A program made the position numbers and the translations under genes. Shown one piece after another: positions 3,341 to 63,724 of a stretch of 64,000 nt of DNA. Position 1 is the first letter of the stretch. Every line of letters starts with the position of its first letter. Source of the DNA: Polytrichum commune (lineage: Eukaryota > Streptophyta > Polytrichopsida > Polytrichales > Polytrichaceae); assembly GCA_950295325.1 (NCBI GenBank), contig OX485806.1:18786001-18850000 (forward strand). The letters are read 5' to 3'. The notes under the pieces were generated by a model. That model made no database searches and was not told the origin of the DNA. It worked only from the letters and a program-made list of their open reading frames with translations.

Positions 3341-3377
3341 AAGAAAGCTTGTCCATTACAACCACCTAGTGTGACTT

Positions 3378-41497: not shown

Positions 41498-41525
41498 AAC
41501 ACTATATTAAACATTTCGGGACTTT
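41498..41525 (+). repeat. T1 left terminal inverted repeat
   Basis: 28 bp, an exact reverse complement of 63,697-63,724. It is followed by a second partly symmetrical block, cgggagtccc. Confidence 0.9.
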
Positions 41526-41564
41526 CGGGAGTCCCAAAGTGAAGATTTTTTTACATTTTGGGGA

Positions 41565-41825
41565 CATGGGAACATATTTATTGCTCCCAGGAACATGCAA
41601 CTAGCTTGTGGGAACGTGGGAACAATGAATTCAGACCATGTGAATGCCAGATGCGCACGTGGGAACCTATGTATGGGAACGTTAAAGCGAACGCATAAAC
41701 GCTCTATGGGAACATGGGAACGATATATGGGAACGTTGGGAACGCGGGAACGCTCTATGGGAACGTATGTGCGCACTGTGGAACGGGGGAACAAGAAGAC
41801 ATTTTGTGGCTACATGGGAACGGTG
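41565..41825 (+). repeat. T1 left subterminal GGGAAC repeats
   Basis: About 14 copies of GGGAAC, mostly followed by G or A and then T or C, are scattered over 260 bp. The same motif, inverted, occurs at the right end. Subterminal motif arrays of this kind bind transposase accessory proteins in other TIR elements. Confidence 0.85.
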
Positions 41826-42282
41826 TGTGGTCGCGGCAGGGTAGTGTGGTTTGCAAACGTGATAGAAGGGGTGTTTGTGGTGTGCACAGTGACAGACCGA
41901 GGGCTCATTAATACAAGTAAACCCAAACCCACATCCAAATACAAAGGATAGACCTTGCATTACATACTTCAAAGTTCAAATTACAACACTTCACATTAGA
42001 TAAATGAACCCACCCTCTATAATGCTGGTGGTTTCCATTAAGAGTTGCACGGGTACACCGTGCCCACAATGGGGTTCCATTTAGCTGCATAGTGTTGAAA
42101 TCAACAAAAATTGCACCCACATGTCCGAGAGGAGCCATGATGGTCTCCCATCGAGGAACCACCCCAAAAAAATTAGTACCAATCATTGGAGTATTTGATG
42201 TGGTGTCTCACATTGTCAAGGAAATCACATCTAATCATGAATCATTGTGTGACGACTACGATGTGGGTTTTCCAATCTCGCA
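41826..42282 (-). other. Probable 3' untranslated region of the DUF7869 gene
   Basis: There is no coding frame downstream of the stop at 42,283 on the minus strand. A minus-strand AATAAA lies near 41,575-41,580, a possible but distant polyadenylation signal. Confidence 0.35.
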
Positions 42283-45200
42283 TTACGAGGAAGGGTTGCC
42301 CCGAGCTCCCCGTCTACCAGTTGCACGGCCACGACCTCGAGTTCCATGTCCACCCCCTACATTTCCACGTCCACGACCTACTCGTCGCGCACTCGGCACA
42401 TCAACGTCCTCCTCAACCGCCATCCCTCCGCGCTCTTGCGCAGAACAACGGCGAAGGTTGTCTTTGGCAAATTCAATCTGCTCTGGTGGAATAGTAATCT
42501 TAAGGGGCTCAACATCTTCATGTGCAGGTAGAGGCCATGCTGCCAAGATGCAGTCAATTGGTTGCCAGTCGGGGATGGAATATTTCGAATCGGCTTTCCA
42601 CTTGAAGTTCGTGTTGGAGTCCCAACCATGGTATTTCTTTGTTATGTCTCTAGCAGTTGAAGTGGGAGTGAACCATTGTACCAGAATCTGACGGGGATGG
42701 TCCCCAGTGACGTTCAAGTTTGGTGGACACAAAGCTCGGCACACCCAAATGGGTCTATCAATATCTTGATCTTGGGGTCGAAGAATGAGGAAATGCCCCT
42801 CATGCACGTTGTCGGCAATGCGGAAAGCCGGTGCAGGTCGAAGGTTAGAGGGGCCCACATAATGGTCATCTGGTTGGTGTTCCTCACGAAGTTCACCAGT
42901 ACTCATGAAAGGATGTGCGTCCCTTTCGATTCGGGAGGATGGCCAGAATCCCTCCTGGAGTGCCAATCCCGCAGTGTACACATTTGTGAGGGGTGCCCGT
43001 AATGCCTCCAGTACCCCAGTCCAGTATTGTAAAAGATGTGTTTGTGAGCCCCTATATGCTCCGGTCATGTCATGGTCACATATAGATTGCCAGTAGTCAA
43101 CAAACCCTTGCAACCCAACAAGAACATCGTCCAGTTTTGCCATTTCTCGAGGTTTAGCAGGGTAAGGTTCCCCAGGTGGGAAAACTGGCTCCCCCTTTAT
43201 GTTGGATTTCCACATCAATATGCCATCCTTGGGCAACCATTCATCATGCGTACTAAGCACCTTGTAATGCATGACGGGCCAACCATCATCCCGTACAACA
43301 AATTTGAATTGTTGGGCTTTCGTATGGCCAATGAGTTTGTCTTGGCCATCAGGAATGTACTCACTAACAAAAGCCCTCCAATCTGGAAGCTCCTCTATCA
43401 TATGTGGGATGATAGGGACCTTCTCCATGTCCATGTATGATTTCATGAGCAAGGGGATAGTGGGGTAATCATGTTCACGCAAGTCCATACTCCATCTACC
43501 AAATGAAGCGTCAATGTCGTCATGTGTATGACCAACTAAAAGGTAAGACACGTGGACCTCTGTGAATATACCTTTGGCCGTGAGCATGGACCAAAATGCC
43601 TTCACATATCTACACTTGTTGTCCTTCCAACAATTATCGAGTTGAACATGCAAAACGGGTGGAAGCGAGACAGCTGGAATAGGCTCACTAGGTGGAGGTC
43701 GTAATCCTGACAAACATACATCACTCCCATGAAGAACAGCACGATAAAGCGGTGACCGACCCGCACCATGGAATAGCATGCGAGATGATGAAGCCGGGGG
43801 CTGTTCCAAATCGCGAAGAAGCCTCGCAAATGAGCCCACAGTATGGTTGCAATCACCAGGATACAAATCCAATGCATAATGAGCATATCTCTCATCTCCA
43901 TGGCCATGAGCCATCATGCCTGTCACGGAAAGTGGTAGTTTCGTGAACATATCAGTGTCTTTGTTCTTGTTAGCAAAGCATGGAGATGCAGTTTTGCCAT
44001 GGTCCATTTTGTCGTGAATGATGGTCAAAACCTTGCGCGGATGCTCAATGGACAACGCTCTCATACAACGGTAAGCATTACGAGCGGATTCTTGCTGTGC
44101 CTGGTGCTTCTCCAACTGCTTGGAAAACCCGGTGTGTGCGGCAGAACCTTTAACATGTTGAAGAATAATAGCCATAAGTGAATCGCATTTCCCACAGCGA
44201 GCAAAATTGTCCCCTGCTCTTTTTGTCACGTAGTGCTTAAAATAATTCTGTCTTATTTGGCTCAGAGTCGAAAGAGAGATTGGTTGCAACCCACATTTGT
44301 CATTCACCTGAATATCATACCACATACAACATTTAGACAGCCACAGAAATGAGAACACCTGGATTGAGGCAATCACTAACAACACATTGAAAATGGACTA
44401 AGTGGAACATCGGGAGCCTACTAACCTGGTTGATTGTAACTAAAAATTTCTTCCATTTTGTGCCGCGAGGCAAGACCATCTCCACTACTCGAGTACCATT
44501 AGGCAAAGTGCGGGATTTATGAGGCATCATGTCCGCTTTGTCCTCTAAGAGGTTGGAAAGAGTGGCAGTGGCTTGCTGAGTGGACACACGATACCGTTTG
44601 GTGTTCAAGTTCCCATGGTCTCGTGGTCGCACCCCACAATTGAACTCTTGTCGATTTCTGTAGAACGCGGTTTTTGAAATCACAAATATGTGCCTCCATG
44701 CGATTAGGCAAATATCACGTCCACTAAGTGTTACCACATTCGTATGCCCCCCCGGAAGTGGATGTACTTGTCCGTGGACCTCAAGACGTTTTGCATGCCT
44801 CATCCTTGTGGAGCAATCATAAAATTCAGTTCGAAGAGCGAGAGCCTCATCTCTAGGAAAGAATCTAAGGCACTCGCGATCACAACACAAAACTGCAGAT
44901 AGTTGTTGTATGCTTGCATTGGTTAGTATTTGGGATTTTTTCGTTGGCTTACGACGCTCTGGTATCCTCGATGTTTCATACGCTCTCTTCCCGTCCTTCC
45001 TTCGCTTCTCCAGCGACTTGGTTTGTGCCCGTAATCTGTGGCCACTAACAAGGAGATGATGTGCCAGAGTGCAACCACCGTGGAAAACACGAGAGATTGG
45101 CCACGCCCTCAAAGCAAACATGGCCCCCATGTCCATCATGCCATGAATAGGCTCCATTATTAGTACACCAACGTGATCAGGTCCCAAACATTTGTCTTCC

Positions 45201-45476
45201 ACGCAGTCAATTGGGTTTACATTACGGCAAATTCCTTTTGCCATATTGTGTCCATGTTCATTCACAAGCATAACAGGCTTGTTCACCCAATCATCCCTAC
45301 GAAGTCCACTGCAATTCGGGTCAATATCTTCAACCGGAACAGTTTCATCTTCCGAGAATATTGCGTCGGAAAGGGATGACCCCTGCACAAACACTTCATT
45401 AGTAAAACATATTCCAACAAACAATGTGAAACATCTTAGTTTAGAAAACCACCTCTGTGGTAGATTCCGCATCCAT
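42283..45476 (-). CDS. DUF7869-type transposase-like protein, 1001 residues
   Basis: Probable transposition protein of T1. Three exons on the minus strand: 45,476-45,453, 45,382-44,426 and 44,307-42,283. Every junction is phase 0 (GAG|GTGGTT...gtgcAG|GGGTCA; CCAG|GTTAGT...attcAG|GTGAAT). The diagnostic DUF7869 block is LDNCWKDNKCRYV (Asp551), then LLVGHTHDDIDASFGRWS (583-600), which is the family's 'LDN..ENKNRY ... GHTH.DID..F' signature. A CxxC (Cys365, Cys368) and HDKMDHGK (426-431) precede it as in relatives, and I infer an RNase H-like active site from the conserved Asp residues. The last 34 residues are an Arg/Gly-rich tail typical of RNA or DNA contact. A 26-bp palindrome cluster lies 220-650 bp upstream of the ATG. 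No frame breaks were seen, so the gene may be active. Confidence 0.85.
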
Positions 45477-45698
45477 GTGCTCGGCCAATCTGCACAAGAA
45501 CACTTGCGCGGTCAGTGTTACAACTTAGGCCTAATATAGCTTCACGTACCATTCGCTATTGAATCATATTAGTGCTTGTACTCGCAATCACCAAACGTTT
45601 AAACTAAAAACACAACTGTAGATATCCTAAAGAACGAAAACTTCATCCTGTATTATCTGCCTTGTGACCTCACTAGATATCACCTATATCACCTGTTA

Positions 45699-45792
45699 CA
45701 ATATGTCGTGTATGTGGCGCGGGCATGCATCCCACTTTCACTCGATCGAGTGAAAGTGGGATGCATGCCCGCGCCACATACACGACATATTG
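45699..45792. repeat. Perfect 94-bp palindrome
   Basis: Every base from caatatgtcgtgtatg to its mirror catacacgacatattg pairs with its opposite, with the 26-bp core palindrome at the exact centre (45,745/45,746) and no spacer. It lies 223-316 bp upstream of the DUF7869 start codon. Confidence 0.97.
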
Positions 45793-45993
45793 GGCCCTTC
45801 ATGCCTTTTCTTTTCTCAGAAAATCCGGTCATAAATAGATGTTACCCAATCTATCCCACCCGATTAACACCTACCTCCCTCTATACATATTATTTGTGTC
45901 GATAATAAAAACGTCGATCACCAAACAATCACATCCTCTCCCCAGAAACTAATCACATCCTCATCCCCAAACAATCACATGTTCATCCCCATG

Positions 45994-46142
45994 CAATCGA
46001 CTCGCCAGCCCACTTTCACTCGATCGAGTGAAAGTGGTGGGCCTGCCAGCGCCGCGCCACAAAACTTTCACTCGATCGAGTGAAAGTGGGCTGGCGAGTC
46101 GATTGCAGGCCCACCACTTTCACTCGATCGAGTGAAAGTGTT
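45994..46142. promoter_or_regulatory. Palindrome cluster upstream of the DUF7869 gene, three copies 52 bp apart
   Basis: The core palindrome (half site CACTTTCACTCGA) is centred at 46,023, 46,075 and 46,127. Spacing is exactly 52 bp. Flanks of neighbouring copies are themselves inverted copies (tgcaatcgactcgccagccc against gggctggcgagtcgattgca), which makes a larger cruciform. The second copy has A in place of the outer C on its left side. Probable regulatory or binding sites. Confidence 0.85.
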
Positions 46143-46408
46143 GGGCCTCCCAGCGCCGGTTGTTCGGGCCGTACTGTACGGACTGCAGGGATGGGTACAG
46201 GGCCCCGCAAATATGGTGCCGCTGCAATGCTCCATGCATATGGAACGGCACATTGAACAGCGCCTCTTCGATCAGGTGTTTCTTGTTGCGTAGGACCGAA
46301 CCTTGTGTGAAATTGATCCCTGGAAGGGATAGAAAGAAGAATGTTGTGGTGTTGTGCTCCCTGGCACAAAGGGCGACAAAAGAGGGTTCGAGTGTGCTCC
46401 TTCCAGGC

Positions 46409-46416: not shown

Positions 46417-46575
46417 TCGGGTGTAGCAGAATTGGTGGGAGAAGTGCCCTAATCCAATTTTGAAGGTTCCCTCCCTTTCGTTTTAGGCCGTCACAGATCC
46501 GTATGTGGACGGCTTTTGATGCCTTTGGGTGGGTTTTTACATGCACCTTGATACAATTGTGTTAGTGGGATTGTT

Positions 46576-46830
46576 TTGCATTATTTTCGGCATGATGTGT
46601 TTAAGCCAATCCGGTCCACCCCCAATCCTGTAATGATAGTTAGCACATCGCCCACTCTTGGGCATCACTACTATGAGCGCGTACTACCTGTTGGTACGCC
46701 TTTGGATCCAAGTTTGATTGATGAGATGAAAACACGCCAGAATGTGGTCCTATCAACAGGTACCCTCAGCCCACCACTTCCATCGCACTTGTGGCATCAC
46801 ACCCTGCTATTGAGGCGCGTACAACGTTGA
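46576..46830 (+). CDS. Doubtful ORF, unknown
   Basis: I do not recognise this 84-residue frame (HYFRHDVFKPIRSTPN...LGHHYYERVLPVG...). Its composition is protein-like and it ends in a short basic tail. There is no ATG in good context, no adjoining exon with a matching phase and no family resemblance. It could be an exon remnant inside T1, or chance. Confidence 0.2.
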   Translation: MHYFRHDVFKPIRSTPNPVMIVSTSPTLGHHYYERVLPVGTPLDPSLIDEMKTRQNVVLSTGTLSPPLPSHLWHHTLLLRRVQR

Positions 46831-47189
46831 GGTACTCACAAGCGCTCATTGTCGTTGCAACCTACATTTGTGCACCGGCTTCAAGGTTGAAGATATTTGC
46901 ACCCCTAGACCTTGAATCTCTTGAAAATAAATGGATGTCCCCAACATGTCATAACAATTACAATTAAATCATCGGCCCTCATCCCAACGTATCTATGTAT
47001 GCTTGTAGTATTGCAGATAAATTGCCATGCTCCCAATGCTATCGGAGTGGTTTATGGCACCCCGATGAGTTCTCCTTCCGAAATTCATATTAACTATTTC
47101 AATATTAATCCAAAATTAATTATTATGTGGGTGGGTCCAATTTCCAATTACAATGTGCTTTGCACATCTCTCAACATTGACATAATGTC
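46831..47189. other. Non-coding stretch within T1
   Basis: Nothing recognised. Confidence 0.35.
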
Positions 47190-47487
47190 TTAATAACTTC
47201 CCAATAGAGGTTAGTAACTTCCCAACTTCCCAATAGAGGTTACTAGTAACTTCCCAATAGAGATTAATAACTTCCCAATAGAGGTTAGTAACTTCCCAAT
47301 AGAGATTAGTAACTTCCCAATAGAGGTTAGTAACTTCCCAATAGAGATTAGTAACTTCCCAACTTCCCAATAGAGGTTACTAGTAACTTCTCAATAGAGA
47401 TTAGTAACTTCCCAATAGAGGTTAGTAACTTCCCAATAGAGATTAGTAACTTCCCAACAGAGGTTAGTAACTTCCCAATAGAAGCAA
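47190..47487. repeat. 21-bp minisatellite, about 13 units
   Basis: Units of taacttcccaatagag(a/g)ttag alternate the A and G forms. A composite variant with a doubled aacttccc and gaggttactag occurs twice, which gives a longer period of about 143 bp. The minus strand is open and would read as a WEVTNLY repeat, which is a by-product of the 21-bp unit. Confidence 0.95.
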
Positions 47488-47737
47488 ATTAGGAAGGGGC
47501 TTATTAACCCCATTATAGTAACCCCATTGGGCTTATGGGGTTCAACAATTCATAAATTAAATTGGAAGAATTTGAAATTTGCGCCTCCAACTTCATCTGA
47601 GGATGCCGTCTCGAATTGACCCTAGACCCTTCTACCCTATTTAACAATTAGTCCAATACCCTAAATGAAAGGTGAAAAGTGCATGTGTGGGTTAATATTA
47701 GTGAAGATTGAGTAGCCTCTGGAGGCCCATCAGCCTA

Positions 47738-47769
47738 CTTAAACCCTAAACCCTAAACCCTAAACCCTA
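47738..47769 (-). repeat. Interstitial plant telomere repeat
   Basis: Four CCCTAAA units in a row. A second short run on the other strand (tagggtt units) lies at 49,021-49,050. Confidence 0.85.
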
Positions 47770-49809
47770 TACTCGAAGTACCACTTTGGTTTGCATTTGA
47801 AGCAAATAATGAATGGGCTACCATGATACAAAACCAATCCCAAATATATTTGATATTCATATTAAGTGCTATGTCTGAATCGGTTGCTTCCACCATTGGT
47901 CACACTTTTTACATTATTTTGTTAGGTCCAATAGCTAAGTCATAGTCTAAGAACTCTAAAATGATTTGAATCAGCTGATCAAACTAGTCAATTTAAAGCG
48001 TTGTCTACATTTGAGCACGTCGTAAGTTAATCTCATCCTAACACGTGTTCATTTAGTGTTCCCTCATAACTGCACGTATTACAAGCATACAACTCTTGGA
48101 CAATTGATCTGCGTTAGTGACAAATATAGGTGTTTAATTAAGAAGCGCGAACATAAGGCCCTCAAACCTTAATCACCATGTGTCCAAGTGTCTTCGTGGC
48201 AATAATGCATCCAAATAAATGCATGGCTTGGACCCTGTAGGAAGCAGTTACAACACTGGCCATTCCCGCAAATTCCTGTGAGCATGCCACGTGTCACATA
48301 TCTTCACATCATGTCTTCAAAAGTTCACGCCCAAGCAGTTGCTCTTGCAATGGTCGGAGTCAATTGTTGAAAGTGCCTATATTGTTCGTAATTGGGAGTT
48401 CACCCATTGGATCTCCCCTTTATGACCTCTCCACTTTCCTTCCATCCACACTCATAACCTTAGTACGTGTAATTAGGTTGCCTTCGCAAATGGGTAAAGT
48501 TGTGTTGCCTCTTACATCGCCTCTTTACGCAAGCAACTTTCCATAGGTCAAACTCGGATCAAAAACCTTATATTAAGTTTTTTGGTTCATTCCTATCACA
48601 ATTAAAGTCCATACAAAATTTGTGTATTTTGTTGTACTGGTAATAAATAATCAAGTAATGTGACATGCCAATAGATTAGTGCAAGACTACCTAATTGCCA
48701 ATATTGGTGTAGGTAGATTCATTGGCATTTATTTGAGCTACTAGTCTAAGAGACAAATTGAATCCAAACTTAAGTTAGAGTTAGAGCAAACCAAGAGCTA
48801 CCTCAATTGATGGAAACAGGGATTTGAGTATATTTGGATTATGCATTAATTTTGGACAACACAACTGCCTAGTAGTATATGGCGTGCACTAGATTGGAAA
48901 ACTACATGAAATTAATATAATGGTGGTTGGCAAATATGGCATACATTGTCAAACATTTGAAGTTGTCACTGATTGTTGTGTTGTCACTCCCACTCCAGTG
49001 CGCAATAATTGTGAACTTTTTAGGGTTTAGGGTTTAGGGTTTGGGGTTTATGGGTTAAGTTATTTAGTGGGCTCCAATCTGCCTTTGAAATCCAATGAGC
49101 TCAGTTATGTGCAAAATGCAAGGGTGGCCATTACGAATGGAACGGTCATTTGAAGCTCCAATGTGGTGTTTTGAAAAATGGGGTAACGTTATGGTCACTA
49201 ACCTTTCACCATTTAAACTAGTGATCAATCTTGGGTCAAGTAACATAGTGACATTTCAAACATATTGGCATAAATATGCTTACAATTCAACCTACAAGCC
49301 TCAACCCTCCATCCTAAACATGCACTCTAAAAACTAAAACTCTATGCCTGAACCCCAAGTTCTAAACGTTACCCCTAGACAATGAGTTTAATATCCAGCC
49401 GACGTTGAATGAATCATATCATCGTGACGAAGGCCACAAACCTATGCATTGGGGAGTCAAGTGTTCCACATGTTGATGGATGAGAGTAAACTTGTCAAAG
49501 CATAATTATTATACCCATAAGAAGTTTACACATTTGGTATGACACTAGTCGTATAACTAGTGTTAGACATAAATGCGCCACCACCCTCCCTACGACCATG
49601 CACCTTCTCTTATCTTTGTTAAGAAATTTTCACATCCTTACTAACACTAAATTTGGGCATGTGACTTACCATAGTCCAAGTTTAGTGTTTGAGTTCACAA
49701 TGAATGTTACTTACTTTCATCTAGGGTTACTAATATTTAGTGTATGCGTTCGTATTTTGTGTATCTAACACTAAATATCACTAGAGTGGGTTGGGACATA
49801 TATGCACCA
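47770..49809. other. Non-coding stretch within T1
   Basis: No gene is supported. It is AT-rich, with short scattered frames only. The interstitial telomere run at 49,021-49,050 is the only notable feature. Confidence 0.4.
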
Positions 49810-49952
49810 CTATAGTTAACTAATCATTAATAGGTCAATGATCATGCACAAATAATATCATCGTGAACTAAACCTTAAAGGTCAGCAATCATGCACCACT
49901 ATAGTTAACTAATCATTAATAGGTTAGTGATCAAGCACCACTATAGTTAACT
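49810..49952. repeat. AACTATAGTTAACTA motif cluster, first group
   Basis: The text caccactatagttaacta occurs at about 49,807, 49,891 and 49,937, twice followed by atcattaatagg. The motif joins two overlapping palindromes, ACTATAGT and AGTTAACT. Confidence 0.8.
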
Positions 49953-50966
49953 AGGTTATGAGAGGATTGTTTATTGCGCACCACTATTCACCACTTAGTG
50001 TAGTTAGTGGCGTTGTAGTTGCCACTATTATTTAGTGGTAGAAGGTCTCGAATACTTGCCAGCAGATTGCCTACTAGTAGGCTTATGAAAGTGCACAATA
50101 TTAATATCGGATGGAGGGCTAACCCTTGCGACACCCACTTTCACCATATGTTATAATCAACACAACAATAACATAACATCTGTTATGTTATTATAACCAA
50201 CAGACAACCTTAAAGTTTACCACCTTGCAATAAAGAAGTTCAACCCAAGTTAACTTATGCGTAGTACAATGAACACACGACATCCTTACACCGTCGCGTA
50301 GGCCTAAGGTATAGACACCCATAACCGATAACACACCCATCACCGACAAGTAGACCTATGCATGAACGCGCATGGCTTAAATTAGCAGAAGTCGATGTTT
50401 TTATATTATAAACGTGAGGACCATATGACTTCGTGGAGGGGAAGTTGTCGAAATAGTTGTTGTCGGTCATGGGTGAAGCTATATGTTGGTTATGGACTCT
50501 AACCAACTTTCATGTTTGCAAAATTTGTAGTAATTCTAACTTTAATCAATTTTGAAAAAAAGCTCGACATTCATCATGGACATTATTTTCCTACGCAGAA
50601 AAATTAACTCCTTCTTGATAACCGAAGATATGCTATGCTGAAATTCTTAAGTTATCGGTTATAGGTATAATATGTACCTTAACTTAAATTTAGGGGAAAT
50701 CTAGATATATTTAAAGATCCTACTACAGGCCACCGGTCCCTCTATAAATGTCCGTGAAGGATAGAAGATTTCAAGAGTGATTTAGATTGTGAATTTCTTA
50801 CATCTTTCTACTACTGCTTTCTTGTTGTCCTCGAGATTATCATTGATACATTCTATTAACCTTGATAATGTCACCCTTGGTAATAGAACACCTTAAAGTT
50901 TGAAACCGATTTTCTTAGTGTAAAACTCCCTTGTTATTATCCCTATCATCCTAGACAATGCCACTA

Positions 50967-51032
50967 TCCAAAATCCAAAATACATCCAAAATACTCCAAA
51001 ATACATCCAAAATACTCCAAAATACTCCAAAA
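50967..51032 (+). repeat. Short tandem repeat of CCAAAATAC(AT/T)
   Basis: Six units of tccaaaata with alternating cat and ct linkers. Confidence 0.9.
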
Positions 51033-51254
51033 TCCGTAGTGTGAACGTTATAATATCAATTATGGATGGATTGTATGTGATGGTTGGATGGACAGATTGT
51101 AATAGCCAAAAGGGTCATGAGCCGCCCCCTGTGATAATGCAATGCTATTCACATGGTCATGAGCCGTCCATGTGCACCAACTTTGAACGGTGTTGTCTAT
51201 ACACGGCACTCAAAGGTGTTGTATGGGACGGCACTGTCAAGACTTCAGACCTTA

Positions 51255-51885
51255 AACAACTGCCAAAATAACTAGAGTTAACTAGAGTTTTTTCAAGACA
51301 TTAGAAAACAACTATAGTTAACTAGGAAATTTTCAAACCAATTTGAAGAACAACTATAGTTAACTAGAAATATTTAAGACCATATTAAAAAACAACTATA
51401 GTTAACTAGAAAAAAATTCAACCAACTACAACTTGAGAGTTCCAAAAAATGTAAGGAGTCAACCAACAAGTTATTTCATTTTTGAATTAACGTATATTAC
51501 ATAACTTCTATAATAGACCTTATGTTTGTCACCCATGAAGGCCCATCCCAAGAAGGACTAGAACCCATTATACTCTAAGTAACTTAGACATAATGAAGTC
51601 ATCATCATGATGCTCATTGGGTGTTGATTGAGTGCGGATCACAACTGGAATCAAGTCCCAAATTTAAATTTTGAATAAAAGAGAAGGAAAATATATAGAT
51701 GCTATGATCTGTCATGGTACTACACTACAGGTTGTGCCCAACTTTAGTTAACTAGATATAACTATAGTTAACTAGATTTTTTGGCATACCAAAATCAAAA
51801 CAACTATAGTTAACTACATTTTTTGGCAGGTCAAATCACAAACAACTATAGTTACGAAAGGCAACTAGTTAACTGATAGTTGAAT
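51255..51885. repeat. AACTATAGTTAACTA motif cluster, second group
   Basis: About nine copies or near copies at 51,270-51,420 and 51,735-51,870, separated by 20-45 bp of AT-rich text. The last copies degrade to tagttacgaaaggcaactag. Confidence 0.8.
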
Positions 51886-54114
51886 TAGTTGGTTAGTTGT
51901 CCAAGGTCTGCAAGACTTCTCGGCCTCTAATATGCATCCCACCTTCCGTCACATGTGTTCACCTAATATGTGTCTATGAGGGTTTCGGCTTGTGTGAAGT
52001 AATTTGGGATGTTAGTTAAGTTCTACGGTTAGGTGAGCTGGTCTAGGTACAGAGTAAGTGTCGACTTAAGCTAAATTAGTTCAATTGGTTTGCAGTGCAG
52101 GTGTTATTCGTTGTGTTGTTGTTTTTGTTGTTGTTGCTACATTGGAAGCTAGTGATTCCATGGAAGAAGACCCATTGATTGTTGATAGCAGTCACTGTGA
52201 TGACGAGTCTAAAGTAGTATAGCTAAGCGATCATGCACAAAAATATGCTAAAGATGTTTTGAATTTTATGGTTAGCCAAGGTTTTCAGATTTTCAACACC
52301 CAGGAGTTGTTAGGAATGGAAAAAATCCATAACAAACTCATTAGAATTGGTGTTGGACAATAAACATCACTAAAACAATGTGACATTAGAAGCTCCTTTG
52401 TCTCTAGTGAGAGGTCTTTACCTGGTCTCAATGACAGATTATGATGTGCTCTTGCTGTTATTCACAATTTTGAATTAGAGTTTACATGTAAAAACATTGA
52501 AGTCTTGTATTTGTTATTTTCTTTTTTTACATTGAAATTTTATTTTGATTGTCTACCTATTTTTTTTGATAATATCACATTATGCACAAATCTTCAGAAT
52601 GTGACATTATCAAATATGACACCTTCAATGCTTATATCACACTTTATGGTGAAACGGATGCTGTGATATTATCAAGGTTAGACTGTACCAATATGTTGAA
52701 ATGTCAGTACCGTTTCAATATACTCAAACATCAATGTTTCATTATTGAAATTATTATTCTATCTTTTCACCATGTGTGTTCTTTAAGTTTGGTCTCACTT
52801 ATATTATAATAGTATTGAACATCGCTTAAATGATAAACATGATAATGTGCACTTTGAACAAAAATTTCAATACATACATGAAGGGCAATTTTTGAGCTAA
52901 CCCTTCATTTTGAAAGGGAAAATTTTAAGTTACCCTTCCTTATGAAATACAAGCAACCCTTCAAATTTATTCCCTGACACTAAACACCATAAACAATGTA
53001 ACAATACTTATTGAATGCAGGGCCTAGTAAACAAATTAAACTTTTTAGGTTTGATCACCCCACCTTATTTTTCACTCGGAAATTAAACTCAAGGTTTTGA
53101 TGATGATTTCAAGACAAAATTGCTCAGAAAAGAAATATTTGGACTACAAGGGAGCGCTAAATTGTCGTCCAAAGTATTCCAATGTGCTACTCTCACTGTC
53201 ATAATGTAGATTTTTCAATTAATATTTTTGCTTAAACATGTTACTTATGTTGATGAATTGTATCATATGGGCAATTAGTAGGCTAGCCTTGACACTTTGA
53301 GACCCCGCCGGCATCTAGTTTAGGCCCTTCGCAAATTGTGCACTTGACACTAAACATCATAAACGGTGTAGTACCTTCTTACATGTGGTGAAATATATAT
53401 GTATATGAATATGTATGTGTATATGTATAATTTTTGAGCTGCATATATATAGGTCCATTCAACTGAATCGTTTTTGAGAGTAGAGATTATCAACGTTTCA
53501 ATACATAGTACACTCTTTTAAACGTGTCTTCTTGATGTTTGCTCTTTGATCCTCACTGAACCCCATACCATTCAAATATAGGGGTTTCGGTTTATGTACC
53601 AGCCAAGCGGTGGCGGTGGCCGTATCATATCTAAATTGAACCATTGTGATGGAATCAAGCCATTTGGACGAAAGCTCATTTGGTAAGTTAAGTGAATCAT
53701 AAGTGAAAGCACCAACTAACATCATACAGTTTGCAATCAATACCCTCTACAGTTAGTAGGAAGTACCCTTCCTACTAACCCACACCCTCCTTAATGAGAA
53801 CGGGTGAAACTACACCCTAGCCTACTCGTCCGCCCATCATGGTCCGGCGTCTAGGATCTGGGCCGTCCATTATTGACGGCACAATCCTGACCATCGGCAC
53901 TTGGGCGAAGGGACGTGGCCGTTCCCAATCTTGGGTCCAGAATGACCTCCCCCGCTCAACACTTTCATTGTGTTTTCTCCTCTTCGATCCTAGTGTTTTC
54001 TCCTCTTGGTTCTTCCGTTGCAACATTGTGCACCCTCTCCCTCTCCGCACCCGGCTCCAAGTGTATTATGCATTTGCCTTCGTCTATGCTCCTTGCTTCA
54101 TTGAAATTGCTGAT
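51886..54114. other. Non-coding stretch within T1, possible distal promoter near its end
   Basis: A 12-bp inverted repeat (gataatatcaca at 52,568 against tgtgatattatc near 52,663) lies in AT-rich DNA. From about 53,820 the base content rises and CT-rich leader-like text begins, which might be the start of the rightward T1 transcript. No reading frame is convincing. Confidence 0.3.
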
Positions 54115-54298
54115 CTAGTATGCACCTTGCACCTTGCTTCACTGCCATCCGGTTGATCTCTTCTAGTATGCACCTTGTTTCATTGAAATCTGGTTGATAT
54201 CTTGTAGTATGCACCTGGTTCACTCCAATCTGGTTGATATCTTGTAGTATGCACCTGGTTCACTCCAATGTGGTTGAGCTCTGCCTCTAGTATGCACA
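54115..54298 (+). repeat. Tandem repeat of about 52 bp
   Basis: The words tagtatgcacctgg/cttg, ttcac/attg and tctggttgatatcttg recur four times. Two middle units are identical over more than 45 bp. Confidence 0.8.
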
Positions 54299-55132
54299 TT
54301 GCTCAACAATCTGCATCTTCCTTTTTTCAATTCACAATCTGCATATCTCCCTTTTCGCACATTCCTCCACCCTCCTGAAGTGCCATCCACACCTGGGATC
54401 CACTCAGTATATCACAAAGAGCATCCTGGTTATGTTTATTTCATTGAATGCATTTTGCTTGACGTTTTTCTATACATTAGGCACCCTGAATTCTTATTAA
54501 GAAATCTTCTTTTGTTTGTTCCATCTCCATGGATTCGGGATGTTCACCCTGATACTCTTGATTTCTAAAGAGTATGCACCTGGAGCCTCCAAGTGTATTA
54601 AGTCAATTTTCGTGTTCCACATTGTTTGTTTGCTATGCTTCATTGAAATCTTCACCCCCAGCATCCTAAATTTGTTCAGTGCAATCGGCATCTTGAATTT
54701 TCCTTCGATATGCTCACTTTTTGAGGTATTTACAACTGGAACCTAATCACATTCTGGTTTTTCTTTTTCAATCCAGGCCCCTGAATCCTTGCAGCATAAG
54801 CATTCAGATTAGCCATATTCCTGTAAACAATATTAAATAACCTCCATCTTGATCCATGTAGCAAGACATGGTATTGGTTTCTACAGTAATCAGAACTTAT
54901 GTAAAATCCCCACTCCTGCTCTTATTGTTGATTCCAAGTGAAGGTCGTGCAAGCAGAGACTGAGTAGCAAATATACATCCATACTCTTCACACATCAGGT
55001 ACACTTCCCGGCTTGCATTGAATGTCAAAGACATAGAAATAAGAAGTTTACAGTCGAAGTATATTTCAAGATATAGTGGTGGGAAATATCCCCGTTCACA
55101 CCTGACTGTACGGACACTCTTCAGGGTTGGAG

Positions 55133-55460
55133 GCGCTGGGCCACTTTCACTCGATCGAGTGAAAGTGGCCCAGCGCTGGCGTGCTGGCTGCCTGAGAGCC
55201 ATGGCTGGCCACTGGCCACTTTCACTCGATCGAGTGAAAGTGGCCCAGCGCTCGCGTGCTGGCTGCCTGCTTGTGCCATGGACAACCATGGCTCACTTTC
55301 ACTCGATCGAGTGAAAGTGGCCCAGCGCTGGCGTGCTGGCTGCCTGAGCTGGCCACTGGCCATTTTCACTCGATCGAGTGAAAGTGGCCCAGCGCTCGCG
55401 TGCTGGCTGCCTGCTTGTGCCATGGACAACCATGGCTCACTTTCACTCGATAACATGAAA
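55133..55460. promoter_or_regulatory. Palindrome cluster upstream of the rightward T1 gene, four copies plus one half
   Basis: The core palindrome is centred at 55,154, 55,229, 55,306 and 55,373 (the last with one mismatch), and a left half site ends at 55,450. The first copy extends to a 44-bp perfect palindrome (55,133-55,176). Copies 1-2 and 3-4 belong to a duplicated block of about 150 bp containing gcgtgctggctgcctg. The cluster lies 73-400 bp upstream of the ATG at 55,533, mirroring the cluster ahead of the DUF7869 gene. Confidence 0.88.
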
Positions 55461-55532
55461 GCATTAATGTTGAGTTGAGATGCATTAATGTGGTTTGAAG
55501 ATTAACTTATTTCACATACCATTGCAGGAGGC

Positions 55533-58500
55533 ATGGACAAAGTTGTTTTCTGGACAGATATAGTTGGAGTCAAACAAACAGGACCAACTGCTCAATGGGT
55601 AATTAGAGACTCTCATTTGCAGAAGTGGTCGCTGGCCATTAACAAGAGAAACAAATCTTCAGGGTACGAGCTTATATTTACGTACAAGGTAAACAATAGT
55701 TGGATTCCGAACCCTGGAAATCCAATTACCATCGCTCATGTGGGAGCGAGGGACAGGCTAGAGGTTTCGGTTATGGAGGGGGTGGAAGAGAGAATTTTAT
55801 CAATTGATTGCAAGAAGCATACATTTCTCTTGGTGCCATTTTATGAGTCCATGGCCTCATTCCCTTCGAAGGAGAAGGAAGAGATAGAGAAGGTGATGTC
55901 ATCTGGAATATCCAAAAGAGCCATAAACTTTGTGTTGGAGACACTGGAAGACATCAACAGTAGAGAGGCAGCTACACGGGAAGAATCAAGGCAGCAAAAG
56001 AAGAAGCAAGCCGAGGTTATACTGAAATCCAAGGCCGATGAAGGTGGCAGCTCTATTGGACAACAGCCGAAGGCAAAGAAGGGGAAAAAACCTGAAGAGC
56101 TAACCGCATCACTGGAGACGGAGAGAAGGAAGCCTCACGAGGTGGTGCCCCACGTTTCTACAGATTCTCAGAACACGGAGAGGGATGCTGGGGATGCCGG
56201 GAGTGGAAGGAAAAAGAAAGCAAAGAGGGCTTTGTCACCCGAGAAGAAATCAAAGCAAAAGAAAATGAAGCCCGACGTTGTTATGCATGAGGAAACCCCA
56301 CTGGTCTTGACTCAAGCGGAGAAGGGTCGAGTTATATCGCAAGGTCAACAACCCAGCCTTGAGGAAGCTGCTCTGGATAGGAAGAAGTTTTTGCAACTTT
56401 TTGGGCACATTTATCCATTCGGCGCAGAATCGATATTCCGTGTACCCATCAAACAAATGAAGGGCGCAAAAGCTTATCAAGTTACGCGGCCTTTGGATCC
56501 AAGTGGGGTGAACCTCATGAAGAACTACCTTATCCAAATCCCGCCTGCTTGGCCTCAGCACAATCTGTGTTTGATGCCGAAGTTCAAGAAAGGTGAAACA
56601 TGGCGAGAAGGCATGACATGGGATGACATCAAGAACATGCAATTCGCCATAATCAATGGGCAACATACTGTAGCCGCATCTACGGAAATAATTGCTCATC
56701 GAGATACCGATCCGAAGCTCAAGGAGAAGTTAAAGGTGTGGCCCTGCACAATTGTGTGGACAGAGGATCCGAGCATGACCGTCAGGCTTTCATATACATT
56801 GAACAATTCGAACTCGTTCAACAAGTTCACACCGACATGGACTACACAAATTCTGTATTATCGCAGGGTTTGGGTGAAGTTGAACAAGCCCGAAAAGCAG
56901 CGTGCGAACGCCTCTGAGGCTACACAGGACCCTGAGAAAACATTGGCTTGGAATGTATGTTACTCTGCTCCCTTAATTCATCAGACCTCTCAAGTGTTGA
57001 CATGACCTCACACCACTTTCACTCGATCGAATGAAAGTGGTGAGGCGCACCTAAAGTGTTGACATGGCCTCACACCACTTTCACTCGATCGAGTGAAAGT
57101 GGTGAGGCGCACCTAAAGTGTTGACATGGCCTCACACCACTTTCACTCGATCGAGTGAAAGTGGTGAGGCGCACCTAAAGTGTTGATCATGCAGGCATTG
57201 TAAACCATTGTATCCTAAACCAATGTATCCTATATCCATGATGTGCAGAACTTTACTACCAGCATGGAGGCATCATTCACCGCAATCGCAAGAGGGATCA
57301 CGCATAACGATCTTAAAGCGGAACTCACGTTAATTATGGCCCCTGAGGAAACATCAAGATTGTGGAAGAAAGTGTTCATGTCGCACGAGAAGGGCTTATT
57401 TATCAACCCGGACAAGCCAGGACGCACATACCTGGAGGATCATGTGGAGGCTCAACAAAAATTACGAGCTCGCCACGAGAAGTCCAAGGCAGGAATACCC
57501 TTCGTGGAGAAACCTTTCGTGACTAAACCCCTTACAAGGGAGACATTCAAGAGTATGTCAGGACTCACAAAGCCAGACTTTCACCTGGCAGCGAGACGGC
57601 TTTTAGAAGGGAGGGGAGAGGACGACGTTCCTAGTGTCACTCTCAGGCCTTGCAAGAACAGCAATGTCGTGACACTGAAGTCATGGTGCAATTTCCGCAA
57701 GTGGAAGAATATCTTGCTGCAGGAGTTGGATAAGCGGGATCCCAATAAAGTTGGCTTATGGAAGAAGGATGATGAGGGGAATGGGTTCCTGGATCGCGAC
57801 GTATGGACAAAATTCAAACGGGAGCATGGAGTTACAAAGCCGAAATGGGTAAAGCTCTACCAGGTTGCGACTTCAGAGTGGTTGAACAGGAAGAGGGCGA
57901 CTAACAACAAGTCCTTACCGGTACAACCGGCTTTAGACCGATTGCTTCGCGACTGGCTGCAAACAGATTTCAACGAATGTACAGGGCAAGTGATCACGCG
58001 GTGGGTGTCACATAATGTCATTAAGAAACGATTGGTGATTCCCAAACAAGATTCCAGTGATGTTGAGTGGATTGAGGGAAGCACCATTGCCGCGGGGTTT
58101 CTGGACTTCAGGTTCATCCCTGGATGTGTAGATGAACCAATCCCTCCTGAAGTTGTGGAGTCCTTGGTTAAATACTTGTGCTCTCCGGAATGGACACCAG
58201 GGGTGAAATCTGTTCCAGCTTGGATGATTATCTCCGACTTACGTAGCCATGATGCCTCGCTCGTATTCATGTCGTCGCTTATGCGCAGACATCCCAACAC
58301 GTTTGTGATCGTCCCGTCGTTCTATTTCCCTTGTCCTGCAGAGGAGATAGCCGACCCCAAAGAAATAGTTGGAAAGAGGCAAACCCCTGCCCTCTACATC
58401 GACCACCTCATTGTCCCAGATAAATTTCCCAGGTGGAAGGTAATTGCATGTCCAATGCTAGCCCCGGATTCGCGCCGATACAAAGTAAAACCCAAGGATT

Positions 58501-60178
58501 GGTCTGAGTTAACATATGAAGTGAATCGAGGGGAGCTCAGAATGGAGGTCTATATTAAGTTCTTGGAGTACATGGGTTCCGCCGGAGGCATGGTTCTCAA
58601 TCTATTTGGGGGCTTGAAACCAGTTGCTGCAGCGTTGGTGAGTTCTACCTATCTGAACTATCTCAATTCGTTCCCTTTCACCTCTTCCCTCTTCCATTTA
58701 TCTAACCTCATTGATTTTCCAGATGCACGATTACAACGTCTTTTCCTACATGGATTCGGCATTCTTGCATATTCTGGACGCGTTGATTCAACGTGTTCGC
58801 GTACTTAAGCTGAAGGATTTCGCTGAACAAGCCGAAGATGAAGATGAGTACCAAGCCCACGATGGCCACATTCACCCTGACCTCAACCCAGATCCACCCT
58901 TGCTTTTGGTAAGTATTGCTAATGAATTACTTTCTTGTGTTTATGAAAATCATCGTTTTCTCACTTCCCCTTTATATGAGATGATAGTTGACATTGTATG
59001 GTTGCTACACAGGAGGATGTCGAAGATCGCGAACCGATCGAGGCCATGGACATTGACCGAAACCCCTCCGATGTGGAAGATCTTCCTGACGATGAAGATG
59101 ACGAGTCTGTGGAGCCTCCAAGTGAACGGGATACCGACGTCGAGAGCCATGGCGAATCCCCCCACACGTCCCATCACTCGGACGATGATGCCCCTGGCGG
59201 TTTGACTCCGTTGGAAGAGCATATGTCGACTGCCTGCGATCTCGGTGCTTCGCCGCTACGAGCGAAGCAACTTGACTTCGATGACGAAGACCGCGATGAC
59301 CAAGACCCAGCTGACGATGAAGACCAGGAGGATGAGGACCAGGAGGATGAAGAACACCAAGATGAGGACCAGGATGTCGAAGAAGAGGATCAGGATGCCC
59401 TTGAGGAGGATCAGGATATCCAAGAGGCCCAGGATGTCGAAGAGGAGGTCGAAGATGTCGATGTGGTTTTGGAGTCCCCTCGTTCTATTCCCGACACCTA
59501 CCAACCTCCACAGCCTGCTGCACGTAGTCCACAGAGACCCAATACCGCCGAAGTTGGTGCTAGTGGGTCCATGGACATTCCACAGAGTCCCCTCAGACCC
59601 AGTACTGCCGATGTTGGTCCTAGTGGTGCCATGGACATTCCACATAGGAAGTCCTCTCGCTCACGAAGTCGGTCCTCAACTAAGGATAGGCATAAACGCC
59701 GCCATGGTAAGCCCGTGGAGCCCCCACTTACGACGGCTGTTTTGGAACCTCTCATGATGGGCATTTTGAATAAAAATTTACCAGGCTTACTAACGAGCTT
59801 GTTCAAGGATGCCATGGCCCAGGCCATGCCACCCTCTCAAGTCGTGCCCACGCCAATTCCTACTCCGGCCACTGTACCAGCAAATGCGGAGGTTGTTTTT
59901 GTCCCCATTGATACTGACCCTTCCCAAGATGTCCTTCCTCAAGTAAAGCCAGCTCATGTGGATCAACCGGAGGTTGCTGAGAAATCGGCCGAGAAGAACG
60001 AAGTGGAAAGTTCACCTGCAGATGCCGGATGCCTGGAGGGGCCTTCACATGATTCCCAGCTTGTTGAAGATGAGGTAAATATCCTTGACCTATTCTCGCT
60101 TTTCCAATTGTTTTTAAACATGCTAGTCACTGAATCTCCGCCGGGATGTTTGATCAGGTTGGAGGCCGCGCATCATAA
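55533..60178 (+). CDS. ParB/DGQHR-like plus methyltransferase-like protein with acidic/SR tail
   Basis: Probable DNA-associated cargo protein of T1; function unproven. Exons 55,533-56,954, 57,249-58,637, 58,723-58,908, 59,013-60,074 and 60,158-60,178 all join in phase 0 with GT-AG introns, giving 1359 residues. A 3' splice site just before the ATG implies a leader intron. Residues 150-250 are Lys-rich (RKKKAKR, a likely nuclear signal). INGQHTVAAS (374-383) resembles the GQHR/GxxR core of the ParB/DGQHR fold, followed by N-rich LNNSNSFNKF. Residues 475-999 end in GGMVLNLFGGLKPVAAAL joined to MHDYNVFSYMDSAF, which resembles the FxGxGT and following acidic motif of beta-class DNA methyltransferases, but no clear DPPY is seen, so catalysis is doubtful. 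Residues 1088-1152 are Asp/Glu-rich and 1209-1232 Ser/Arg-rich. Beyond the TAA, the frame stays protein-like (KPFVDRNPRLTRALDLKTF), so the end is uncertain. Confidence 0.65.
56955..57248 (+). promoter_or_regulatory. First coding intron with three palindromes in a 62-bp tandem array
   Basis: A 294-bp intron (AAT|GTATGT ... gtgcAG|AACTTT). The core palindrome is centred at 57,026 (one mismatch), 57,088 and 57,150, inside 62-bp units that also contain gaggcgcacctaaagtgttg. About two thirds of the intron consists of these units. They could fold in RNA as well as in DNA. Confidence 0.88.
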
Positions 60179-60372
60179 TCAAACCACTTGGAGAATAGGA
60201 AGCCGTTTGTAGATCGCAATCCAAGGCTGACTAGAGCATTGGACTTAAAAACCTTTAGGACATTTTAGTTGTAGCCAAACTCATGTACTGGGTATTTGGA
60301 AGATGTACATTTTACATTCAATGAAATGTGTTTCGTCTATACATTGTCTGCAATGGCTGTCATTAACAATGC

Positions 60373-62405
60373 ATGTTCAATTCACATGCTGGTTTGCAAA
60401 TCGTTGATTTCACACGGCCAGAATCACCATGTGCAGCAGTCCCGCAAACGGGTGCAGCCGAAGAGGACACCTCACTTATAGTTGGCCCCATGCAAGCCCC
60501 CATTGCCACTACATGTCGAAGTCCAACGCTTGTCGTCACCCCTTTGGACAAAGGGGATCGTTCACCCCTCTTGCCCATAGGTAGTGACGATGATGTGGTC
60601 AAGTCGCCTTCACCCACAGCGGTCCACATTGCTGCCATCAAACCTCTTGCTCTGAAGCAGGCTGTCATCGAACATTCAGAGCCCGGGTCATCATCTGCAG
60701 GCCTGCAACAACCAATATCACCACCTTGTTACTGTACTGCTACCGTGGAGCCAACGGAGCCTTCCTCTTCTGCAGGCCCTTGCCAACCCGAGGCTCCACA
60801 TTGTGAGGAGCATGCTGTCGTTGATGCAACGGAACCCGCTGTCGTCGATCCAACAGAGCCTTCATCTTCTGCCGGCCCACATCATGTCAAGAAAGTCGTG
60901 GAACGTTGGCCACGCGACGACAGGTTCCCCGACTTTCCCCCTGACAATACAAAAATAGCCGAACGTCCATTTGAGGCTTGGCGGGCTATGCACGCCAGCC
61001 GTTCCGAGGTCACTTGCCCAGAGCTGCGTGTGCGGCCAGCTCTCCCAGTTTGTGTAAGCATCGTTTCCCCTTCTCATGGCACTTAGTTTGTGTAAGCTTC
61101 GTTTCCCCTTCTCAATAAAATTTCACTTGGTCCACTGGATTTTCTTTTCAATATACCCGGTTTATTTGTGTCCCAAACATTCATCTCCGCGTAGTTTTGG
61201 GTTCAGGGTGGACAAAGTGCGCAAACGACTATGGATGCGCCCTTCAACCCACACGTTGTTTATGATAAACTTTTTGTTTACGCTGACAACTACCCAACGT
61301 ACGATAGGAACATCTCTCAAGTTTTCACGAGGGAGATGGGAATAGCGTGTGCTAAAAGACTTATTTCTAGGGACCCTCAAGACCCTTCAGTAGGACCATC
61401 GGATCGCTGGGAATTCAATCCCATAACTTTCGAGGTATTGGTTTCCCAGTTCATAATAACTTTTAATATTTAGTTCATTATAAACCCCCATATCAATATA
61501 TGCACCTATTGCATATATGAATGTAAGTTATTGAATATATGAATGTAAGTTATTGAATATATGAAGTTCCACAATTTTCATTAGTTGCAACATTATATGT
61601 AATTCGAGTAAAGCAGGAGAAGTTGACAGTGGATTCCTGTCGCCAGGCGCTAGCTGCTGTACCCGACCGAAGGTTCATTCTGGTGTTCGATTTGAATGGC
61701 ATATTTTGTCATTGTATTCCTCGCGGCCGTTCCGCTTTACCCACATGGATGGTGCAAGATCGTGCGCCAGACAAGGGTCCGGCGATTGTTGGTCCCAAAG
61801 CTGTCCTACCTAGACTGGGTTACAAGCACTTTTGGGAGAGAATGACCCAAATGTTCTATGTTTGCATATGGTCATCTATGAAAAAGTCCACTGTGGACCT
61901 CGTGGTGGAGTTTTTATTCAATGGGATGTCAAGACCTGCAATAGTTCTTGGCCAGGAGGATTGCATCACATTCAAAGACATCTGGGACAATGAGATCAGG
62001 AACCCCCTAAAGCCAGAATCAATATTGTTCTTCAAGAGTTTAAACAAAACATTTTGGTGGCCGCCTGTATCTCTTGATTCCGGACGTGTTACTGCCACTA
62101 TTGAGAACACTGTTCTTGTGGATGACAGCCCCTACAAAGGTGCTTGTAATCCTCCCGGGAATGTATTGTTTCCCGATTCCTTCACCACCAACAAACAGGC
62201 AACTGCGGATATGAGAGCAGTTCTTCTCCCCTACTTCCAACGTATGTTCAATTCGACAATGAGCGACGTACGCGATTTTGTGATCACACATAGATTTGGG
62301 CAACAGCCGGTCCCGCATAACGATCCAGTCAGGGAGTCACTTATGATGGCCAACAAGCACTCCAATCGACCCGACTTGCACCCTATAACTGCTGTCCCAA
62401 GATAG
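60373..62405 (+). CDS. FCP1/NIF-like phosphatase-fold protein with changed active site
   Basis: Exons 60,373-61,053, 61,207-61,434 and 61,617-62,405 join in phase 0, giving 565 residues. The first 227 residues are Pro/Ser/Glu-rich with three TEPSSSAGP-type repeats and look disordered. Residues 320-530 form an FCP1/NIF-type HAD domain: FDLNG (328-331 begins DLNG), CIWSS (motif II), and VLVDDSPYKGACNPPGN (470-486, motif III DD). The family's first motif is DxDxT. Here the second Asp is Asn and the Thr is Ile, so phosphatase activity is doubtful, although DLNG variants occur in plant members. The start is uncertain: the only in-frame ATG after a stop is at 60,373. It may instead be the continuation of the preceding gene, since all junctions share phase and there are only 195 bp between them. 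FCP1-like proteins dephosphorylate the RNA polymerase II tail in other systems. Confidence 0.6.
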
Positions 62406-62488
62406 TTAGCATGTAGGGTTTAGGTTAGGGCATGTAAGGTTCATGAATTGTATGGCATGTAACATTGTGTATTATATGCTTTGTTCAG

Positions 62489-63288
62489 TTTCCTCCTGCT
62501 GGATACACACCATCCACTTCCAAGCGATCGGCATTCGTGTGTCTCACCCCGCGGCATGAACACAACGTAGTACTGGCCTGCCATCCCTTCTCACTCGCCC
62601 ACGTGGGCGTAGAAGCTATCCGGGTCGCTAACTCTCAAAGTGTGTCACCCCTCACTGAAGCAACCCCTGAAGGACAGAGTCTGGTAAATATAGCTCATTT
62701 TGTTCACCTGGGAATGTTCTTACCCAAATAAATATTTTGCAAATCTCCTTTTCAATCTCTATCTAATCTCCAACATTTGGCGTGGAATGTATGTGCATGT
62801 ATATGAATGTTGGTGGTATTTGTGGGGCAATAAGTTGGAGAATGTTTTTTGCCTATGTCGGCCTGCAGGATGTTGACCTAAATATGCTCCCCCCAATGGA
62901 TGATGGACCACAACCCGCCCATACATTATCCATTATGCGCCCCACCCCTACCCGCGAGTACCAAATTGCGCTAATCGAATCGCAAGGCCCTGACTCAAGA
63001 GGTGTTCGTCTTCTACGTGCTGGATTGGCATCACTTGGGAAGACTTATGCCCCTCAACCCGCCATGACGAAGCTCCCTTCCACCATTAACCATGTGGAGG
63101 GCGTTGACACCAGTATGTGCACCCTCGCAGATGCTTCAACACCTCCATGCGGAACTTTGGCCATCGTGCACCCCGCTGCTACACGGGACTACCAAATTTC
63201 ACTCATCGAATCTCAAGGCCCTAATTCAAGGGCAGTTCGACTTTTGCGGGCTGGATTGGGTGACCGTGGAAATAATCGTATCGCTTGA
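62489..63288 (+). CDS. Two phase-0 exons with a duplicated YQI-LIESQGP repeat
   Basis: Exons 62,489-62,683 and 62,869-63,288 have good splice sites (gttcAG|TTTCCT, CTG|GTAAAT, tgcAG|GATGTT) and end in a stop. The second encodes two similar units, REYQIALIESQGPDSRGVRLL and RDYQISLIESQGPNSRAVRLL (with one residue fewer shown at each end possible), each about 60-75 residues. I do not recognise the domain. The exons would continue the FCP1-like gene in phase 0, but the preceding exon reaches a TAG at 62,403 with no good donor before it. They are therefore either the end of that gene through alternative splicing or read-through, or a separate transcript. Confidence 0.45.
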
Positions 63289-63448
63289 CGAGGCAGGACT
63301 ACAATTGAGCGACCTGTAGAAGCCACAACATGTATTAAATACTATAGTTGATAATGCGTCCCCTTTAGCCACATATCGGTGGGGACATATATATAGCCAA
63401 ACATGTATGTAGACGCCTAAGAATGAGGCATTCGACATATGCTTCAGG

Positions 63449-63454
63449 AATAAA
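63449..63454 (+). terminator. Candidate polyadenylation signal AATAAA
   Basis: An AATAAA hexamer 161 bp after the stop at 63,288 and before the T1 right end, suited to ending the rightward transcript inside the element. Confidence 0.5.
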
Positions 63455-63624
63455 GATCTCAATTCAAACAGTAATTGTTCTACAAACTTGGTGTATGGGT
63501 TACCAATTCTTTTCTTTCGAGTACAAGGCTGTAGCCTCCACTCACCCACTCATTTGAACCGGTCAAAGTAGTGTTGCAATCAACTGGGAGTCCATTAGGG
63601 GTCACTGCTACACAACATAGGATT

Positions 63625-63668
63625 TGTTCCCAATGTGTTCCCAATGCGTTCCCAATGCGATCTCAATG
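63625..63668 (-). repeat. T1 right subterminal repeats
   Basis: Three GTTCCCAATG units and one decayed copy (tctcaatgg). On the minus strand this is GGGAAC, the same motif as at the left end and in mirrored orientation. Confidence 0.8.
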
Positions 63669-63696
63669 GACACTCCAGAAGTCCCATATTGACGCC

Positions 63697-63724
63697 AAAG
63701 TCCCGAAATGTTTAATATAGTGTT
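63697..63724 (-). repeat. T1 right terminal inverted repeat
   Basis: The exact reverse complement of 41,498-41,525, followed by TAAT. Confidence 0.9.

Follow-up and report, generated by a model that had tools for sequence, protein, structure and literature searches.

The 64,000-nucleotide stretch of the Polytrichum commune genome analysed here (GenBank assembly GCA_950295325.1, contig OX485806.1, forward-strand positions 18,786,001–18,850,000; hereafter the window, to which all coordinates refer) contains a complete insertion of a 22.2-kb transposon, T1, at 41498–63724. T1 carries a transposase gene on the minus strand, a putatively ParB-like accessory gene and a third gene on the plus strand, and three clusters of a 24-bp palindrome lying at the first two of these genes. 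The palindrome arrays went unmentioned in an earlier sequence-only reading of the window, and we find them to be the most informative feature of T1. The exact ends given in that reading were seen again: the terminal inverted repeats (TIRs; 41498–41525, plus strand, and 63697–63724, minus strand) are perfect inverted 28-mers, flanked on both sides by a TAAT target-site duplication (TSD; 41494–41497 and 63725–63728, unstranded), and their 28-bp match compares with a longest match of 11 between simulated 100-bp ends (100 trials). Next to the left TIR lies a subterminal array of 13 GGGAAC copies (41560–41836, plus strand), the putative transposase binding region, and the GTTCCCAATGC repeats near the right end (63626–63668, minus strand) mirror it. 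The left 400 bp thus hold 13 GGGAAC motifs, as against 0–3 in 20 simulations, and the right 150 bp hold three in the GTTCCC orientation, in keeping with the mirrored motifs noted previously. When the flanks are joined with one TAAT, two uninterrupted repeat copies in the window (2605–1637 at 86% and 18434–17457 at 81%) align to them for ∼980 bp, spanning the junction; T1 therefore inserted into a host repeat, called an LTR in the earlier reading, which becomes whole once T1 is removed, as had been claimed.

The transposase gene comprises three exons with splice sites read by eye: exon 3 (42283–44307), with DUF7869 and the predicted RNase H-like catalytic core; exon 2 (44426–45382), alignable to relatives; and a putative exon 1 (45453–45476) of eight codons from the ATG, soon after a 3′ splice-like site. 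Joined, they give the 1001-residue frame reported earlier, which has no internal stops and matches Pfam DUF7869 at 4.1e-40. An RNase H fold, as known from DDE/D transposases, is predicted for the DUF7869 protein. D426, D429, D551, D591, and D593 are invariant in 22 sequences; in a 59-sequence set, D429 and D551 are invariant and D426, D591, and D593 are each conserved in at least 90%. Of 65 relatives, the two that carry names are from the moss Ceratodon purpureus. L001 (CADCWO010000071.1), a plant-like transposase gene with a 944-codon frame and 41% identity in its best segment, lies on a contig that is assigned to a cyanobacterial metagenome-assembled genome and is probably moss contamination.

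The accessory gene, on the opposite strand to the transposase, has at least four putative exons and is open for 1353 codons over exons 1–4. Exon 1 (55533–56954) encodes a confidently modelled N-terminal beta-rich domain followed by an INGQHT motif region, exon 2 (57249–58637) has an end that looks methyltransferase-like by eye with no catalytic motif found, and exons 3 (58723–58908) and 4 (59013–60074) follow, the latter with acidic repeats. By eye, INGQHT looks ParB-like and VLNLFGG resembles methyltransferase motif I. The [DNS]PPY methyltransferase motif is absent from the gene, and a wider methyltransferase pattern retrieved just DIPH in acidic exon 4 and SPPF on the opposite strand. Public sequence holds 30 relatives of exon 1 at 48–93% identity, none of which has a precomputed Pfam domain. 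In seven of the 30 the reading continues upstream as AGD-M or AGK-M, which is consistent with a splice site just before the ATG, so that the second palindrome cluster probably lies in an intron of the 5′ untranslated region.

The 24-bp palindrome ACTTTCACTCGATCGAGTGAAAGT occurs 12 times in T1 (nine exact copies, two with one change, and one decayed, with five changes), in three unstranded clusters. Cluster 1 (45699–46140; four copies) begins 258–640 bp upstream of the transposase ATG, and one of its copies centres a perfect 94-bp palindrome (45699–45792). Cluster 2 (55133–55464; four copies plus the decayed one) precedes the ParB-like ATG by 71–367 bp; cluster 3 (57011–57166; three copies at a 62-bp period) occupies the putative intron between ParB-like exons 1 and 2. 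Among the 11 well-kept copies, the 24-bp core is 98.4% identical between clusters and the flanking 10-bp blocks are 20–48% identical; these copies were chosen for palindrome match, excluding the decayed twelfth, so the core identity arises partly by choice, whereas the low flank identity does not. The motif is absent from both T1 ends, and no match with up to seven mismatches was found in the 41,497 bases to the left of T1.

We searched the 407.8-Mb genome (64 contigs, with the window at C4:18786001-18850000) for other copies; all counts are lower bounds, 40 candidates having been scored. The left 503 bases of T1 have at least 40 matches. Among the matches listed, 19 (T1 counted) show nearly full coverage at 89–100%, and 18 of those 19 begin exactly at base 1. 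ParB-like exon 1 has at least 53 matches (14 at 98–100%, including T1; four at 93%; 35 at 65–76%), and for at least 15 of the 18 at 93–100% the positions place a left terminus on the same strand 14–24 kb away. Ten copies with left end and exon 1 on one strand and 13.98–14.77 kb apart (14.04 kb in T1) were picked for end comparison, which left aside at least five more at 15.6–23.4 kb. The left TIR is perfect in all 10, and the right end is present in nine (eight perfect, one with a single mismatch); the 5 kb fetched for the tenth (L010/L011) contained none. In each of the nine two-ended copies, 22,269 to 24,362 bp long, the same 4 bp stand to the left and to the right of the element, differing among the copies and from T1, such that T1 and these nine present 10 different 4-mer duplications. 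Shared termini with other 4-bp flanks, which the sequence-only reading had named as the mark of a family, thus establish a multi-copy TIR transposon. Since 14 copies have exon 1 98–100% alike, the spread must have been recent. We are close to certain that T1 is a full-length member of a young, multi-copy family of giant cut-and-paste transposons; its gene set looks autonomous. At G000:C2:23.20-23.29 Mb, partial copies and copies at 93% identity lie clustered, some in one orientation and some in the other.

Palindromes also accompany the accessory gene in relatives. We fetched the DNA of 20 ParB-like loci, 18 divergent and two close, and found 81 dyads with arms of at least 9 and 0–2 bases between them, against totals of 0 to 3 in each of five simulations. 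Seventy-four of the 81, in 18 of the 20 loci, are of the same kind; the pattern defining this kind was set after viewing the dyads, so the unselected comparison is 81 versus 0–3. Several types can be told apart: ACTTTCACTCGATCGAGTGAAAGT in T1, L048, and L049; ACTTCCACTCGATCGAGTGGAAGT in, e.g. L031, L035–L038, and L042; AGGTTCCTCTCGGCCGAGAGGAACCT in L040 and L044–L046; and AACTTCCTCTCGGCCGAGAGGAAGTT in L047. Changes between types are mostly matched in both arms, arm pairing having been a selection criterion. In L031, L034, and L047, the three divergent loci in which positions were compared, the dyads flank exon 1, lying upstream of its start and directly after its end, and L035–L037 each contain a perfect 108-bp palindrome. 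For the public relative P0087, the three frames of its protein tails yield a near-perfect 26-bp dyad in four copies spaced at 58, 58, and 60 nt, with 30 of 32 columns in agreement; random offsets leave 26 of 32 empty on average. L001 has three dyads 93–548 bp before its transposase ATG; they belong to yet another type, of which AGTTTAGCTCGACTCGAGCTAAACT is the best copy, with a consensus derived from its own copies; a generic test gives three dyads at 9/10 pairs there (expected 0.29, maximum 2 of 100) and no excess at 8/10 pairs (4 versus 3.62).

These DNA data supersede a test made on translated introns. A first version was set aside because its motif had been tuned on the same tails (17 tails yielded eight matches with at most one mismatch, against a mean of 0.14 and a maximum of 1 in shuffles). 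Retesting with the T1 core only and without P0066 gave, in 16 tails, three matches at up to one mismatch, against a mean of 0.24 and a maximum of 2 in 200 shuffles, and eight at up to two (shuffle mean 2.07, maximum 7); at these two thresholds, control matches numbered 0 and 18 in the same proteins' exons (6773 aa) and 7 and 89 in transposase relatives (47,031 aa).

The Sola superfamily is described as having 4-bp duplications, a DDD transposase, TIRs of 11–1124 bp, and sizes of 2–9 kb, with some above 15 kb, and has been reported from the moss Physcomitrella (PMC10741241). The T1 family shares the 4-bp TSD, with a 28-bp TIR and a size of 22–24 kb, a likeness by description rather than by sequence comparison, and its design is probably Sola-1-like. 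Membership in Mutator or Pack-MULE was rejected, as duplications there are 7–12 bp (PMC10741241) and those of the T1 family 4 bp. The sequence-only reading knew of no plant transposon family with this gene combination; that the combination is undescribed was not borne out, in that a ParB-methyltransferase gene already lies opposite the transposase in the Ectocarpus giant Sola-1 element Sola1-1_Ec32 (21.5 kb; PMC12477816), and the same source cites reports of similar proteins in green and red algal transposons. Likened by description, T1 matches Sola1-1_Ec32 in giant size and in the accessory gene opposite the transposase, a parallel that makes the ParB-like and methyltransferase-like labels plausible; they differ in that Sola1-1_Ec32 has a brown algal host and a predicted methyltransferase, of which no catalytic motif was found in T1. 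The available description of Sola1-1_Ec32 mentions no palindrome arrays, unlike T1, and nothing resembling a palindrome code was found in the literature searched. We accordingly read T1, by analogy, as a probable land-plant variant of the described Sola-1 plus ParB-methyltransferase design, with the palindrome arrays as a new feature.

The closest parallel for such arrays comes from VANDAL21, in which VANC21 binding coincides with motif arrays that lie upstream of VANA21 and within introns of VANC21 and VANB21, and VANC21 causes methylation loss in its own family (PMC5735166); as far as these sources describe them, VANDAL motif arrays are tandem and fast-diverging (PMC5735166, PMC10398659). 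T1 likewise has element-specific tandem arrays in putative accessory-gene introns and upstream of its transposase, diverging between families. VANDAL21 differs in being Mutator-type, in its non-palindromic YAGTATTAY motif, and in its demonstrated hypomethylation; the likeness is one of layout, not of compared proteins. Fungal DNA transposons of several superfamilies carry TET/JBP dioxygenases (PMC12730594), and are thus another case of DNA transposons with a DNA-modification gene, with other enzymes and other hosts. Palindromes fall outside the scope of that work. A palindromic site close to the gene for a ParB-like protein is familiar from bacterial parS/ParB, and the half-site TTTCAC/GTGAAA happens to match that of the T1 palindrome. 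The T1 palindrome differs in having eight extra central bases, other families have other half-sites, and no role in segregation is expected of a site within a chromosome.

Taken as a whole, we give about 50% to the explanation that T1 belongs to a giant Sola-1-like family whose palindromes are read by an element-encoded protein. The transposase would bind the ends through the GGGAAC arrays and move the element, and ends plus transposase should suffice for cut-and-paste movement; the palindrome arrays lie away from the ends and are therefore not the cutting substrate. Since the core is kept while its flanks change, a dimeric DNA-binding protein would fit its symmetry, and the clusters hold regulatory positions at element genes in a layout shared, with different parts, with VANDAL21, we tentatively take the palindromes to be protein sites of an element-encoded reader, at somewhat under even odds. 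By analogy we propose that the ParB-like protein, or else another element product, may bind them as a dimer, that this reader would direct itself to the copies of its own family and, as VANC does via tandem motif arrays, might keep their promoters and introns unsilenced in a self-recognition, anti-silencing system. The palindrome would then drift jointly with its reader in each family, so that families would become separate recognition groups. That the palindromes form such an evolving self/non-self code, with a reader that shields only its own family's copies and an origin independent of VANC, is possible, and we put it forward more cautiously.

Several observations weigh against this explanation. 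The ParB-like and methyltransferase-like domains named in the sequence-only reading drew no support from profile searches: no match to ParB or methyltransferase was found in Pfam or other profile libraries, phage searches were also negative, and a PDB profile search returned four rows (best E 0.72), none of them ParB. The ParB region is of low confidence in the structure model. Two of the 20 ParB-like loci (L030 and L041) have no dyad of the sort described, and L033 and L034 have two palindrome types round one ParB-like gene, one on each side of exon 1, which is unexpected for a single reader and hints at element recombination or at two readers. Generic near-dyads (9/10 pairs) are not rarer outside T1, numbering 19 in 41.5 kb as compared to 13 in its 22.2 kb, of which 11 are the ACTTTCACTCGATCGAGTGAAAGT motif itself. 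In the available text of the VANC paper (PMC5735166), the string ‘palindrom’ is absent.

The main rival, which we consider unlikely, is that the palindromes act as RNA, forming strong intronic hairpins that steer splicing or feed small-RNA production, with no protein reading the DNA. The clusters do lie in or beside putative introns, the intron between exons 1 and 2 has a folding energy of −116.5 kcal/mol (z −8.3), several copies are symmetric over more than 24 bp (up to 94 bp), and co-varying arms would be expected of paired RNA no less than of DNA dyads; yet pairing does not require that the 24-bp sequence itself be kept, as it is between clusters (98%, flanks 20–48%), and hairpins in introns would be expected to attract silencing. 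It is quite improbable that the palindromes are extra transposase binding sites, serving as synapsis enhancers or in self-repression: they do stand upstream of the transposase gene in both T1 and L001, but both T1 ends lack the motif and have the different GGGAAC repeats, and two of the three clusters are at the other, ParB-like gene. Palindromes can amplify through template switching, and the clusters are tandem, as expected of small self-propagating repeats that have no role for the element and are homogenized by gene conversion. We regard this as very doubtful, given that the sequence surrounding the palindromes is not common to the clusters and that in L031, L034, and L047 the same two positions are filled by partly different sequences. 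Finally, T1 might be a Pack-type element, a simple transposon with host genes captured by chance, and NIF/FCP1-like domains are indeed common in eukaryotes; the recurrence of exon 1 at 93–100% in at least 18 matches, at least 15 of them with the same-strand left terminus 14–24 kb away, and the palindrome shared between the ParB-like and transposase genes make this highly improbable.

The third gene (60367–63288, plus strand; several exons by eye) contains the FCP1-like domain reported earlier, in an open reading frame (ORF) at 61557–62402 that matches Pfam NIF at 7.7e-10 (39.1 bits versus a cut-off of 21.8); by eye, D-L-N replaces D-x-D in this NIF/FCP1-like phosphatase domain. The middle part of T1 (46500–55000, unstranded) is mostly low in G+C, with no stop-to-stop ORF above 115 aa and with several short repeat arrays, among them a 42-bp unit with AACTATAGTT (49802–52245) and a 21-bp tandem unit (47169–47484); AACTATAGTT is itself palindromic, with six exact copies in T1 and none in the 41.5 kb to the left. 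Outside T1, all on the plus strand, a 407-aa stop-free ORF (38191–39414) has an H-D...H pattern and is possibly a 2-oxoglutarate oxygenase (perhaps TET/JBP-like), with a weak zinc finger below the cut-off as its sole Pfam match; a 632-aa stop-free ORF (31784–33682) has no Pfam match and a GTGHGKGPHDGAGA segment that resembles another transposon protein; and a protein kinase domain ORF is followed by an NB-ARC ORF (25539–28078), a kinase-NLR arrangement that occurs in mosses. Self-alignment also revealed a tandem array of ∼150-bp units at 3377–4731.

With T1, a land plant is seen to harbour a giant transposon that is young, present in many copies, and probably mobile. In giant transposons of algae, the accessory proteins of ParB type have been suspected to bind and mark their own DNA, with the target unnamed in the available source description (PMC12477816), and the T1 palindromes, repeated, family-specific within one genome, and located at element genes, are a candidate for it. 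If our proposal is correct, these palindromes would be the DNA that ParB-type accessory proteins recognize as their cognate target in the giant transposons of algae and plants.

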